Positions 22,221-32,987 of a stretch of DNA of 64,000 nucleotides are shown here, piece by piece. Position 1 is the first letter of the stretch. Each line of letters begins with the position of its first letter. The notes beneath the pieces are model-generated. The model did not search any database. It saw nothing but the letters and a program-made list of their open reading frames with translations, and was not told the origin of the DNA. A program made the translations under genes and the position numbers. The DNA is from Aureimonas ureilytica DSM 18598 = NBRC 106430 (GTDB taxonomy: Bacteria; Pseudomonadota; Alphaproteobacteria; Rhizobiales; Rhizobiaceae), in the NCBI RefSeq assembly GCF_000382705.1, contig NZ_ARQE01000009.1:1-64000 (forward strand), read 5' to 3'.

Positions 22221-23297
22221 TTAAACCCGCCGCCCGTCCGCGCCGAAGAGATGGGCCTGCGCGGGGTCGAAGCCGAGCGGGATCGTCTCGCCGGGTCGGA
22301 TGGCCTGCTGGCCGTCGAGAAGCACGGTGGTCGGCTCGCCGCCGCCCGTGCTGGTATAGACGACCGTCGAGCCGCCCAGATGCTCCACCAGTTGCACCGA
22401 GGCCGAGCCGAGCCCGGCGCGCGCTTCGCCGGCGCGCAGGTGCTCGGGGCGCACGCCGAAGGTGAGTTCCTCGTCGCTGCGCGCTTCCACGGGCTTTTCG
22501 AGCTGCACCTTCAGCCCGCCGACATCGATCGTGCGCCGCGACGGGTCACCCGATGCCATGCGCGCCTTCAGGAAGTTCATCTTCGGCGATCCGATAAAGC
22601 CCGCGACGAAGCGGTTGGCGGGGTGGTTGTAGAGGTCGAGCGGACGGCCCGCCTGCATCACGCGCCCCTCCTTCAGGACCACGATCTTGTCGGCCATGGT
22701 CATGGCCTCGACCTGATCGTGGGTCACGTAGATCATCGTGTTGCCGAGCTGCTGGTGGAGCCGCGTCAGCTCCACGCGCATCTGCACGCGAAGCTCGGCG
22801 TCGAGATTGGATAGTGGCTCGTCGAACAGGAAGATCTTGGGCTCGCGCACGATGGCGCGGCCGATCGCGACGCGCTGGCGCTGGCCGCCCGAAAGGGCTT
22901 TGGGCTTGCGCTGGAGGAGAGGGCCGATCTGGAGCACGTCGGCGGCTTCCTGCACCCGGCGCTCGATCTCGGGCTTCTTCATGCCCGCCGTTTCCAGCCC
23001 GAAGGCCAGATTCTTGTAGACGCTCATATGCGGATAGAGCGCGTAGGACTGGAACACCATGGCGATGCCGCGCTTGGAGGCGGGCACTTCGTTCATGCGC
23101 TGCCCGTCGATGCGAAGCTCGCCGCCGGTGATGTCCTCCAGCCCCGCGATCATGCGCAGAAGCGTGGACTTGCCGCAGCCGGACGGGCCGACGAAGACGG
23201 TGAAGTCGCCGGGATCGATGGTGAGGTCGATGCCGTGGATGACGCGCAGGCCGCCATAGACCTTTTCCACGCCGTCGAGCTGGATGGTGGTCGCCAT
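22221..23297 (-). CDS. sugar ABC transporter ATP-binding protein (UgpC/MalK type)
   Basis: A 358-residue ATPase. Walker A is GPSGCGKST (about residue 38), signature [15 protein letters not shown], Walker [13 protein letters not shown], and the H-loop is [11 protein letters not shown]. The C-terminal third forms the MalK-like OB/TOBE regulatory domain (FGVRPEHLR, LVEHLGGSTVVY). I use the ATG at 23297, with AAGGGGA upstream; a TTG six codons earlier is possible. It is the last gene of the five-gene leftward importer operon, 14 bp after the oxidoreductase, and energises the two permeases of that operon. Confidence 0.92.
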   Translation of the reverse strand: MATTIQLDGVEKVYGGLRVIHGIDLTIDPGDFTVFVGPSGCGKSTLLRMIAGLEDITGGELRIDGQRMNEVPASKRGIAMVFQSYALYPHMSVYKNLAFGLETAGMKKPEIERRVQEAADVLQIGPLLQRKPKALSGGQRQRVAIGRAIVREPKIFLFDEPLSNLDAELRVQMRVELTRLHQQLGNTMIYVTHDQVEAMTMADKIVVLKEGRVMQAGRPLDLYNHPANRFVAGFIGSPKMNFLKARMASGDPSRRTIDVGGLKVQLEKPVEARSDEELTFGVRPEHLRAGEARAGLGSASVQLVEHLGGSTVVYTSTGGGEPTTVLLDGQQAIRPGETIPLGFDPAQAHLFGADGRRV

Positions 23298-23311
23298 ATC
23301 GTCTTTCCCCT

Positions 23312-24424
23312 TCAAGCGTCCTGCGGCTGCCAGCTCGCATATTTCGGATGGGCCGGGCCGATCGGCAGTTCGACATCGCCCCCCGTCTCGGCCGAGGCAT
23401 AGATGGCGGTGACGAGTTCGAGCGAGCGGCGCGCGTCGCGGCTGGTGACGGGCGGCGGCTCGCTCGCGCTCAGCGCCTTGTGGAAGGCCGCCATCTGCCC
23501 TCGGAAGCGTCGTCCGACGGGTTCGAACCCTTCCAGCACCTCGTCGATCCGCGCCTTCACTTGATCATTGGCCGGCAGAATCGTCCACGGCCCGTCGCCG
23601 GGCGAATAGGCCTCGTGCGCGCTCTCGAAGGTGACGTTCTCGAAATGCAGGCGCAACCGGCTGATCTCGTTCTGGCTGCCGAGCGTGGCGGTGGAGGAGA
23701 GGAACGCGCCGCTTTCCATGCGCCAGGAGGCCGACACGCAATCCTCCACCTCGATCGCGTTGACGCGCGTCGCGGCGCGGGCGAAGACGCGATCGACCGG
23801 GCCGAACAGGAAACAGGCGAGGTCGTGGATATGGATGGCGTGGGTCATGAGCACGCCGCCCAGCTCCGTCTTCCAGCGCCCGCGCCACGGGTTGTCGTAA
23901 TACTCGGCCGTGCGTTTCCAAAAGGTCTCGGCCACACCGACATAGGGCTTGCCGGCAATGCCGGCATCGATGATGCGCTTGGCCTGCATCGCGCCGTCGC
24001 CGTAGCGATACTGGAAGATCGGCATGAGACGCCCGCGCGAGCGCGCCTCCGCCTCGATGATCTCGTCCACCTCTTTCAGCGAGCCGACGAGTGGCTTCTC
24101 GCAGACGACATGCTTGCCCGCCGCCAGCGCCTTCAGGATCATCTCGCGATGGAGGCCCGGCGGCGTGCAGATGTCGATGATGTCGATATCCTCGCGCGCC
24201 AGAAGTGCGTCGAAATCGTGCACCCGCTCCGCGACGGCGAACTCGTCGCCGACGTCGTTGAGGCGGGCGGCGTCGAGATCGCAGAGCGCGGCGACCTCGA
24301 ACTTCTCCGGGGCGGGGGCGTAGCCCTCCACGATATGCGAGCGGCCGATGCCGCAGCCGACCACCGCGACGCGGAAGCGCCTCGTGGTCTCGCTGGCGTG
24401 CAGGGCGGGAGCGGACATGTTCAT
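23312..24424 (-). CDS. Gfo/Idh/MocA-family oxidoreductase (importer operon)
   Basis: A 370-residue NAD(P)-dependent sugar dehydrogenase-like protein. The Rossmann motif is VAVVGCGIGRSHI (about residue 20) and the catalytic-domain landmark is CEKPLVGS (about 107). THAIHIHDL supplies the His expected in the active site. It lies between the permease and ATPase genes, spaced 13-14 bp on each side, so it is cotranscribed with the importer and probably oxidises the imported sugar or a derivative. It differs clearly from the two oxidoreductases of the rightward operon. Substrate unknown. Confidence 0.9.
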   Translation of the reverse strand: MNMSAPALHASETTRRFRVAVVGCGIGRSHIVEGYAPAPEKFEVAALCDLDAARLNDVGDEFAVAERVHDFDALLAREDIDIIDICTPPGLHREMILKALAAGKHVVCEKPLVGSLKEVDEIIEAEARSRGRLMPIFQYRYGDGAMQAKRIIDAGIAGKPYVGVAETFWKRTAEYYDNPWRGRWKTELGGVLMTHAIHIHDLACFLFGPVDRVFARAATRVNAIEVEDCVSASWRMESGAFLSSTATLGSQNEISRLRLHFENVTFESAHEAYSPGDGPWTILPANDQVKARIDEVLEGFEPVGRRFRGQMAAFHKALSASEPPPVTSRDARRSLELVTAIYASAETGGDVELPIGPAHPKYASWQPQDA

Positions 24425-24437
24425 GATGCGAGACCCT

Positions 24438-31665: not shown

Positions 31666-31676
31666 ACGAGGCTTCG

Positions 31677-31700
31677 GGCCGGAGGGGACGCCCTTCGGCC
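31677..31700. repeat. intercistronic stem-loop before third oxidoreductase
   Basis: GGCCGGAGGG (31677-31686) pairs with CCCTTCGGCC (31691-31700), one G-T pair, around a GACG loop. No T-run follows, so it may stabilise or process the operon mRNA rather than end it. Confidence 0.45.
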
Positions 31701-31739
31701 GGCATGAAAATGCCCGCGCATCGCGGGTCGGGAGGAACG

Positions 31740-32987
31740 ATGGAACAGGCAAGACAGCGCATCCGCTACGCGCTGGTGGGAACCGGCAATCGCGGCACGA
31801 CCATGTGGGGGCGCGAGCTTCTGGCGGGTTGGAGCGAGTTCGTGGAACTCGTCGGCATCTGCGACCTCAACCTCATGCGCGCGGAGCGGGCGCGCACGAT
31901 GATCGGCTCCACCGCGCCCCTCTATGCCGATTTCGACGCGATGCTCAACGAGCTGAAGCCCTCGCTCGTCATCGTCTGCACGCCCGACGATACGCATGAC
32001 GACCTGATCGTGCGGGCGCTCGAAAGCGGCGCGGATGTCATCAGCGAAAAGCCGATGACGACGACGCCCGAAAAGATCGCCCGCATCCGCGAGGCCGAGG
32101 CGCGCACCGGGCGTCGCGTGGACGTGTCCTTCAACTATCGCTTCTCGCCGACCTCGGCGCGCATCAAGGAACTGATCGAGGAAGGCGCGATCGGGGAGGT
32201 GACCTCGGTCGACTTCCACTGGTATCTCGATAACCAGCACGGGGCCGACTATTTCCGCCGCTGGCACGCCTTCACGAAACATTCCGGCTCGCTCTTCGTC
32301 CACAAGGCGACCCATCATTTCGACCTGTTGAACTGGTATCTCGACTCGGACCCCGTGGAGGTGAAGGGCTTCGGCCAGCTGCTCCACTACGGGCGCAACG
32401 GCCCGTTCCGGGGCGAGCGCTGCCGCACGTGCTCGTACAAGAACGAATGCGACTATTACTTCGATCTCTCGGCCGACCGGTTCCTCGACACGCTCTATGA
32501 AGAGCCCTCCAGCGTCGATGGCTATGTGCGCGATGCCTGCGTGTTCCGCGAGGACATCGACATTCCCGACACGATGACGGCCTCGATCCTCTACCGCAGC
32601 GGCGTTCAGGTCTCCTATTCGCTCAACACCTACATGCCGATCGAGGGCCATCACATCGCCTTCAACGGCCATCGCGGGCGCATCGAGCTGCGCCAATACG
32701 AGCGCCAGCCCTGGAGCGTGCCGCCCGCCGACGAGATCGTGGTGATGAAGAGCTTCGGCGGCGGCACGGAGCGCATCTGGGTGCCGCACGAGCCGGGTGG
32801 CCATTACGGCGGCGACAACCGGATGCGCGACATGATCTTCAAGCCGGGCTCCAACGACCGGCTGCGCCAGCGTGCCGGCTCGCGCGCCGGCGCCATGTCG
32901 GTGCTCTGCGGTCTCGCGGCGCTGGAAAGCTCTCGGGCCGGCGGCGCGGTGGCGATCACGCCGCTTTCGCCGGAGATCGCGCGATAG
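31740..32987 (+). CDS. Gfo/Idh/MocA-family oxidoreductase with cysteine-cluster insert
   Basis: A 415-residue dehydrogenase-like protein. The Rossmann motif is YALVGTGNRGTTMWG and the domain ends at VISEKPMTTTPEK (about residue 108). HKATHHFDLLNW holds the catalytic-domain His pair. An insert near residues 225-245 carries CRTCSYKNEC, three Cys with C-x2-C-x6-C spacing within a few residues of DYYFD, suggesting a structural metal or disulfide. GGGAGGAA precedes the ATG. It lies 74 bp after the isomerase gene and has no TetR operator of its own, so it is probably the last gene of the operon. Confidence 0.88.
   Translation: MEQARQRIRYALVGTGNRGTTMWGRELLAGWSEFVELVGICDLNLMRAERARTMIGSTAPLYADFDAMLNELKPSLVIVCTPDDTHDDLIVRALESGADVISEKPMTTTPEKIARIREAEARTGRRVDVSFNYRFSPTSARIKELIEEGAIGEVTSVDFHWYLDNQHGADYFRRWHAFTKHSGSLFVHKATHHFDLLNWYLDSDPVEVKGFGQLLHYGRNGPFRGERCRTCSYKNECDYYFDLSADRFLDTLYEEPSSVDGYVRDACVFREDIDIPDTMTASILYRSGVQVSYSLNTYMPIEGHHIAFNGHRGRIELRQYERQPWSVPPADEIVVMKSFGGGTERIWVPHEPGGHYGGDNRMRDMIFKPGSNDRLRQRAGSRAGAMSVLCGLAALESSRAGGAVAITPLSPEIAR

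Follow-up and report, generated by a model that had tools for sequence, protein, structure and literature searches.

The described system closest to the locus treated here is the SMc04130-SMc04139 group of Sinorhizobium meliloti, in which SMc04132 is a DUF993 protein (structure 4dnh) and SMc04130 a xylose-isomerase-like barrel protein, labelled APE below (3ju2). We analysed a related cluster of ten genes (gene models) at positions 22221-32987 of a stretch of Aureimonas ureilytica DSM 18598 DNA (64,000 nucleotides of contig NZ_ARQE01000009.1; hereafter the window), where a TetR-family gene lies between an importer operon and an operon for a Gfo/Idh/MocA dehydrogenase (GfoA), the single DUF993 protein of the genome (5,087,183 bases, 44 contigs) and APE. 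We read this cluster as a regulon under TetR control that serves the breakdown of a small acidic (carboxylated) sugar, or of a conjugate of it, and in which GfoA would oxidise the substrate to a ketone and DUF993 would cleave it by imine chemistry; we infer both substrate and reaction, and put the probability of this reading at about one half.

In one S. meliloti study (PMC12542648), SMc04133, SMc04135, SMc04138 and SMc04139 were named as oxidoreductases or binding protein; together with SMc04132 they fell into one co-expression module of proteins detected only in complex medium, and when a phbC phaR mutant was compared with phbC, all five were lowered in it (log2 -1.07 to -3.65). The module fits joint expression of both arms of the cluster and points to no substrate. 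SMc04134, the TetR gene judging by its number, appeared as a much-connected factor in an inferred network (PMC11387232).

Pfam gives only a name for DUF993, and a search of the open literature found DUF993 or PF06187 in no paper (subscription journals lie mostly outside it, and a description there is possible), which agrees with an earlier note on this DNA that had described the protein as lacking an assigned chemistry. The open literature also gave nothing for 4DNH with Sinorhizobium meliloti, nothing relevant for the structure codes or the Paenibacillus isomerase, and no paper combining the NCBI product names. The three core enzymes have close solved relatives (4dnh; 3ju2 and 3qc0; 3oqb), yet no function was found there for these relatives or for the S. 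meliloti group.

Palindromic sites around tetR

The palindromes were first spotted by eye and then searched. The whole genome held just two exact copies of the pattern TAACCNNNNGGTTA, and these stand in the two promoters on either side of tetR (27664-28353, plus strand; PF00440, PF17938): one as TAACCGTTTGGTTA at 27606-27619, 62 bases from the binding-protein gene and 44 from tetR, and one as TAACCAGATGGTTA at 28428-28441, 64 bases upstream of GfoA. Both are listed, without a strand, as putative operators. As a control, the pattern read backwards occurred once on each strand of the genome, and the scans were also run with longer patterns and mismatches (genome) and with shuffles (window). Since one palindromic site stands in each of the two divergent promoters, importer and enzymes appear to be tied into one unit. 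The TetR_N domain of the regulator, together with a palindrome beside its own gene, places it in the TetR family, and the cluster looks like one TetR-centred regulon, as the earlier note had proposed from the letters of the DNA.

On the plus strand, GfoA (28506-29681; PF22725, PF01408) is followed by the DUF993 gene (29678-30847; PF06187, E 3e-188) and APE (30844-31665; PF01261), and the ATGA overlaps already claimed for this operon were confirmed at 29678-29681 and 30844-30847. The third Gfo/Idh/MocA oxidoreductase, GfoC (31740-32987, plus strand; PF01408), is not linked by ATGA; it follows APE after a gap of 74 bases, with GGAGG ahead of its ATG. It contains a cysteine-rich stretch, CRTCSYKNEC, that is possibly metal-binding; by eye none was seen in GfoA or GfoT, the oxidoreductase of the importer operon. 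All parts that the earlier note had listed (complete importer, TetR, DUF993, isomerase-like barrel and three different oxidoreductases) are present at their coordinates, the three oxidoreductases all being Gfo/Idh/MocA proteins.

Of 297 genomes sampled across the order, 89 had DUF993, and of 289 sampled across the class, 25 did; both counts include the genome studied here. The order sample gave 98 DUF993 matches; after removal of the match in the genome itself and of five others that were weak or partial, 92 loci of 20 kb or less were fetched, in which the absence of a gene means that it was not seen. The named set contained the best 80 of 585 confirmed matches and is therefore biased towards close relatives; two of its loci share their DUF993 protein with two loci of the order sample, and the two sets are reported apart. 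With 13 plasmid loci and the window (25 kb), these made up 186 loci and 3.59 Mb, the two repeats included. Each neighbouring gene took its label from the named reference gene that it matched best in BLAST, subject to identity thresholds set by hand, and a locus was called type A when GfoA lay within 2.5 kb of DUF993.

Over the 186 loci we found 38 exact sites, 36 of them upstream of a labelled system gene and none within a labelled gene; five control palindromes gave 0, 6, 0, 1 and 3. When one mismatch was allowed, there were 151 matches to the motif versus 20, 48, 9, 12 and 34 to the controls. In type-A loci of the order sample, the upstream zones (350 bases before to 40 bases after the matched start of a labelled gene) made up 17% of the sequence and held 11/11 exact and 22/25 one-mismatch sites; the other DUF993 loci of that sample (16% of sequence) had 1/1 and 12/13 in such zones, and type-A loci of the named set (best 80 of 585; 16%) had 22/24 and 61/67, related loci not being independent of each other in any of these counts. 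The sites precede GfoA, the CUT1 binding protein, NitT/TauT-type (NitT) permeases or the binding protein of tripartite-tricarboxylate (TTT) importers in some loci, which covers all three importer types, and in loci of other settings they precede DUF993, CoA-transferase, SDR, ETF, TetR or GMC genes.

Conserved core and importers

Type A accounted for 54 of the 92 order-sample loci, with APE (counted within 7 kb) in 54/54 and TetR in 48/54. Among the best 80 of 585 matches, 77 loci were type A, 75 of these with APE and 66 with TetR. GfoA and DUF993 lay on the same strand in 139/139 type-A loci of all sets. Because this core recurs in many genomes, the gene arrangement is more than chance; judged by these comparisons of gene content, the conserved unit is TetR-GfoA-DUF993-APE and the importer is not part of it.

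The importer of the window has the components of a CUT1 (MalK-type) system, namely a binding protein, two permeases and a MalK-like ATPase with an OB/TOBE domain. Its genes lie on the minus strand in the following order away from tetR: binding protein (26260-27543; PF13416, PF01547), permease 1 (25300-26256; PF00528), permease 2 (24438-25310; PF00528), the Gfo/Idh/MocA oxidoreductase GfoT (23312-24424; PF01408, E 1e-25) and the UgpC/MalK-type ABC ATPase (22221-23297; PF00005, PF08402, PF17912; NCBIfam UgpC subfamily model 472.2 bits, cut-off 432). The binding protein had been called Tat-exported, and by eye its N-terminus MTVSVTRRSLLQGG looks twin-arginine-like. Its nearest solved relatives are 4ovj, YesO (5z6b; 182 bits) and 2uvg (120 bits), the last of which we take to be TogB; YesO and 2uvg presumably bind acidic pectin fragments.

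This window-type importer was found in 8 of the 54 type-A loci, and in 8 when all 92 order-sample loci are counted: alone in seven and with a TTT importer in one. A TTT importer alone was present in 20, a NitT importer in 15, and TTT with another CUT1 importer in one, so that TTT or NitT/TauT-type importers stood in place of the window type in 36/54. The importer as an intrinsic part of the system, as first proposed, therefore had to be given up; the neighbourhood comparison that the earlier note suggested upheld the TetR-GfoA-DUF993-APE set and weakened the pairing of this importer with DUF993. On a DUF993 tree (106 rows, made by a quick method; two long rows join, some forks stay open, and only one label was used where a locus had two importers), the starred branches force at least nine TTT, at least five CUT1 and at least four NitT label changes.

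Further Gfo oxidoreductases accompany the window-type CUT1 importer. With a threshold of 55% identity for the labels, GfoT, GfoU and GfoC were found in 7/8, 5/8 and 4/8 order-sample type-A loci with this importer, and none of the three was found in the 46 that lack it; in the named set, again the best 80 of 585, the numbers were 21/28, 15/28 and 20/28 versus 0, 0 and 0 of 49. The named locus nearest to the window is that of Aureimonas jatrophae (L031), whose proteins share 82-90% identity with nine of the ten cluster proteins and 77% with the binding protein. GfoU, a fourth oxidoreductase, is present in this locus and in S. meliloti L111, and none is present in the window. Its place in L031 is 3734-4720; in the window, where GfoT and the permease gene are separated at 24424-24438, it is missing, and none was seen in L143 and L152.

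Relatives of the locus carry a divergent mandelate-racemase/enolase-like family (for example L111 13166-14581 and L123 7327-8760; Pfam MR_MLE_C 30.3 bits, cut-off 29.4), which was found in 29/54 type-A order loci, including all 15 with the NitT importer; the L111 protein had no solved relative at E 1e-5. A second barrel of the relatives, APE2, is nearest to D-psicose 3-epimerase, below the cut-off. Clustering of the unlabelled open reading frames across type-A loci revealed lineage-specific flanks and no more widely common genes beyond a small TctB-like subunit (by eye). In 18 type-A loci, a putative sulfopyruvate/phosphonopyruvate decarboxylase subunit pair was noticed 3-8 kb downstream (for example L130 16237-17375), judged by eye from the N-termini.

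DUF993 and the proposed pathway

The DUF993 protein matched PF06187 over the full profile (1-382 of 382) with 625.9 bits (cut-off 24). Its AlphaFold model (17 sequences; pLDDT 82.9) gave 4dnh (SMc04132) as best Foldseek match with a TM score of 0.94, followed by structures of the dihydrodipicolinate synthase (DHDPS) family from E 1e-9, with 12-16% identity in the rows shown; the predicted model has the (beta/alpha)8 fold of this family. Through hhalign comparison with DHDPS (probability 84%, E 8e-6), Lys227 (A1 numbering) was paired with the Schiff-base lysine, the segment DGIKISLL of DUF993 corresponding to the lysine segment and YTGDDF to the following GDD-like motif. Lys227 is invariant in 186/186 loci and is by its position the candidate Schiff-base residue; H39, D80, Q83, R84, T118, R156, H186, W187, D253, D254, Y320 and K321 are invariant in the same 186. 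The PF00701 model does not recognise the protein, a Pfam scan at E 0.001 giving PF06187 only. DUF993 may therefore act like an imine-forming barrel enzyme, though it is not a PF00701 member. The retro-aldol cleavage suggested by the earlier note is plausible because of the DHDPS-type fold and the invariant lysine at the Schiff-base position; that much of the suggestion stands, and the donor is probably not a plain 2-keto acid.

The other core enzymes also have solved relatives: GfoA matches 3oqb with 623 bits, and APE, a xylose-isomerase-like TIM barrel (isomerase, epimerase or lyase), matches 3qc0 (434 bits), 3ju2 (433) and 7vpf (269). The APE alignment shows the segments IEPLHP, IDVYH, HHICDW and EVEIF, which we take to be metal ligands.

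In the proposed pathway, TetR would repress the operons as long as no inducer, a compound related to the substrate, is present. With NAD(P), GfoA would turn an alcohol carbon into a ketone, DUF993 would form an imine between its invariant lysine and this ketone and break a neighbouring C-C bond (retro-aldol), and APE, as a metal-dependent isomerase-like barrel, might convert one product to a form for central metabolism. TTT and NitT/TauT-type importers are carriers of organic anions, and their presence in 36 of the 54 type-A loci points to a carboxylated substrate rather than the neutral sugar or glycoside first supposed. In these variants the free acid would be taken up, and GfoT and GfoC would not be needed. 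Because GfoT, GfoU and GfoC are coupled to the CUT1 importer, what the window variant takes up might be a larger conjugate such as an acid glycoside, from which GfoT and GfoC would prepare or release the acid. Understood in this way, the cluster would be a sugar-acid catabolic regulon, DUF993 being an enzyme family without an assigned reaction.

Thirty-eight of the 92 order loci have no GfoA and belong to another setting. They contain a CoA-transferase (23), another CUT1 importer (23), enoyl-CoA-hydratase family proteins (22), aldehyde dehydrogenase (18), LacI (18), GMC (15), SDR (11), APE (11) and acyl-CoA dehydrogenase (6). An oxidoreductase (SDR, Gfo or GMC) lies within 4.5 kb of DUF993 in 29 of the 38, so oxidation commonly accompanies DUF993; none was seen in the other nine. 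Five of these nine (L155, L157, L163, L165 and L167) have DUF993 without GfoA or APE in the fetched 20 kb and are nested inside type A on the tree; a labelled TetR is nearby in three, and all five have a one-mismatch site 32-60 bases upstream of DUF993.

The second setting was found on plasmids (L112, L119, L120, L122) and in order loci such as L172, L184 and L194, the last three with the TAACCNNNNGGTTA palindrome upstream, exact or with one mismatch. Its genes, in a set that varies by locus, encode CoA-transferase, acyl-CoA dehydrogenase, SDR, ETF, enoyl-CoA hydratase, GMC and sometimes glycerate kinase. Related settings on annotated plasmids occur in S. meliloti pSymA (L112), Rhizobium anhuiense (L119) and Janthinobacterium (L122), and in the actinobacteria Arthrobacter and Glaciihabitans (L114, L115) too. 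The same palindromic site occurs in DUF993 loci of both types. We might tentatively speculate, at somewhat less than even odds, that DUF993 is a new imine-forming C-C lyase for oxidised acid sugars, with its own invariant residues in place of the usual motifs, and the hub of an undescribed pathway fed in two ways: by NAD-linked oxidation with exchangeable importers (GfoA type), or by GMC/aldehyde dehydrogenase and CoA-ester enzymes (the other type).

Several points weigh against the reading as an acidic-sugar regulon with imine cleavage. The GTTGE carboxylate-binding motif and the catalytic tyrosine of YNxP in DHDPS are replaced in DUF993 by AMDTAQRGMG and HWLGE, so aldolase chemistry by analogy is not secure and the retro-aldol suggestion is weakened to that degree. 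CUT1 importers usually carry neutral sugars, and the closest matches of the NitT/TauT-type binding protein are THI5-like and sulfonate-type proteins, which would fit other anions too. A site with up to one mismatch was found in just 28 of the 54 type-A order-sample loci, and ten of the 54, each 20 kb or less, showed none of the importers looked for. L146, a type-A locus with a TTT importer, has weaker Gfo matches of 47% and 31%, under the 55% threshold. Importer labels changed 18 times on the DUF993 tree versus 55.5 when shuffled, and because of this strong clustering importer exchange, on the sequences compared, is real but only occasional. The setting of the 38 loci without GfoA, with its CoA-transferases, is one that the regulon reading does not explain in detail.

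DUF993 could also be a Schiff-base dehydratase, like some other enzymes of the DHDPS fold, that eliminates water (beta-elimination) from a keto-acid sugar instead of breaking a C-C bond, APE then isomerising the product. Its DHDPS-fold matches include L-2-keto-3-deoxyarabonate dehydratase (7c0d, 3fkk), and the mandelate-racemase superfamily, a relative of which occurs in those 29 of 54 type-A loci, includes acid-sugar dehydratases. A succinate-semialdehyde-dehydrogenase-like gene, as such routes would need, lies near the type-A plasmid loci L113 and L114; however, this label was given in only one of the 92 order loci, L194, which is not type A, and the 2-keto-acid binding motifs are not kept in DUF993. 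We consider the dehydratase unlikely. A downstream route in which APE would be a hydroxypyruvate isomerase leading to glycerate was prompted by glycerate kinase in L112, L113, L115, L117 and L120; it was not adopted for the window, since this kinase was found in 0/54 type-A and 1/38 other order loci and in 1/77 type-A loci among the best 80 of 585.

The CUT1 importer and three Gfo enzymes of the window would also suit a neutral glycoside: a Gfo enzyme would oxidise its C3, APE would cleave the product as a 3-keto-glycoside eliminase, and DUF993 would cleave the resulting keto-sugar. GfoT, GfoU and GfoC exceed the threshold only with CUT1. GfoT and GfoC are weakly similar to glycoside and disaccharide 3-dehydrogenase models, and all three window enzymes to the NCBIfam levoglucosan dehydrogenase model; but GfoT, GfoA and GfoC score 92.0, 60.5 and 64.5 bits with the latter, far under its cut-off of 650, and the core accompanies organic-acid-type importers in the 36 type-A loci mentioned, which makes this explanation quite improbable. 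Lower still stands a pathway for an inositol-like cyclitol, in which GfoA would be IolG and APE a dehydratase resembling IolE. The best scores of the Gfo enzymes are indeed with inositol 2-dehydrogenase (IolG; GfoT 106.9, GfoA 64.5, GfoC 93.8 bits), and the sole NCBIfam match of APE at E 0.001 is 5-keto-L-gluconate epimerase IolO (24.7 bits); the cut-offs of 355 and 300 are not reached, and the gene tables of the 13 annotated plasmid loci, which are incomplete, list nothing like IolB, IolC or IolD. We regard this pathway as very improbable. Assignments as inositol, levoglucosan or glycoside 3-dehydrogenase were ruled out by the curated cut-offs, and the inositol and 3-keto-glycoside comparisons of the earlier note fell with them. 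That importer and enzymes are only separate neighbours might be argued from the exchange of importers between species, but the perfect palindromes, which in this genome stand in these two promoters only, and the common co-expression module of the S. meliloti counterparts of both arms (PMC12542648), make it scarcely credible.

With the acidic-sugar regulon as the preferred reading, the site, the conserved core and the importer exchange narrow the question to which acidic sugar induces the regulon and is cleaved by DUF993. The answer would name an enzyme family of rhizobia, Devosia, Bradyrhizobium and others, and would sharpen the label 'dihydrodipicolinate synthase family protein', which is mostly the product name on the annotated plasmid records.

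Neighbouring genes and known systems

Outside the cluster, the window contains at 19506-22199 an acyl-CoA-synthetase-like protein (CoA-binding, ligase and ATP-grasp domains) fused to a GNAT acetyltransferase domain. A second CUT1 importer, perhaps Ugp-like, lies at 35656-41901 (ATPase, two permeases and binding protein) and adjoins glycerophosphodiester phosphodiesterase-like and inositol-monophosphatase-family genes.

Compared with known importers, the binding protein of the window belongs to the same CUT1 binding-protein branch as the YesO/2uvg-type pectin-oligosaccharide importers; unlike these systems, the ten-gene cluster includes neither a polysaccharide lyase nor a glycoside hydrolase. 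The iol and 3-keto-glycoside/levoglucosan pathways likewise combine Gfo/Idh/MocA and AP_endonuc_2 proteins with a sugar importer, but the window enzymes reach none of their equivalog cut-offs, and to our knowledge these pathways have no DUF993 enzyme. L111, the annotated counterpart on an S. meliloti pSymB record, differs by two genes that the window is without, GfoU and one of the mandelate-racemase-like family. DUF993 itself resembles the DHDPS/N-acetylneuraminate lyase superfamily (PF00701) in its barrel fold, its aligned invariant lysine and its GDD-like motif; it differs in having no PF00701 match, and the GTTGE and tyrosine positions hold other, conserved residues.

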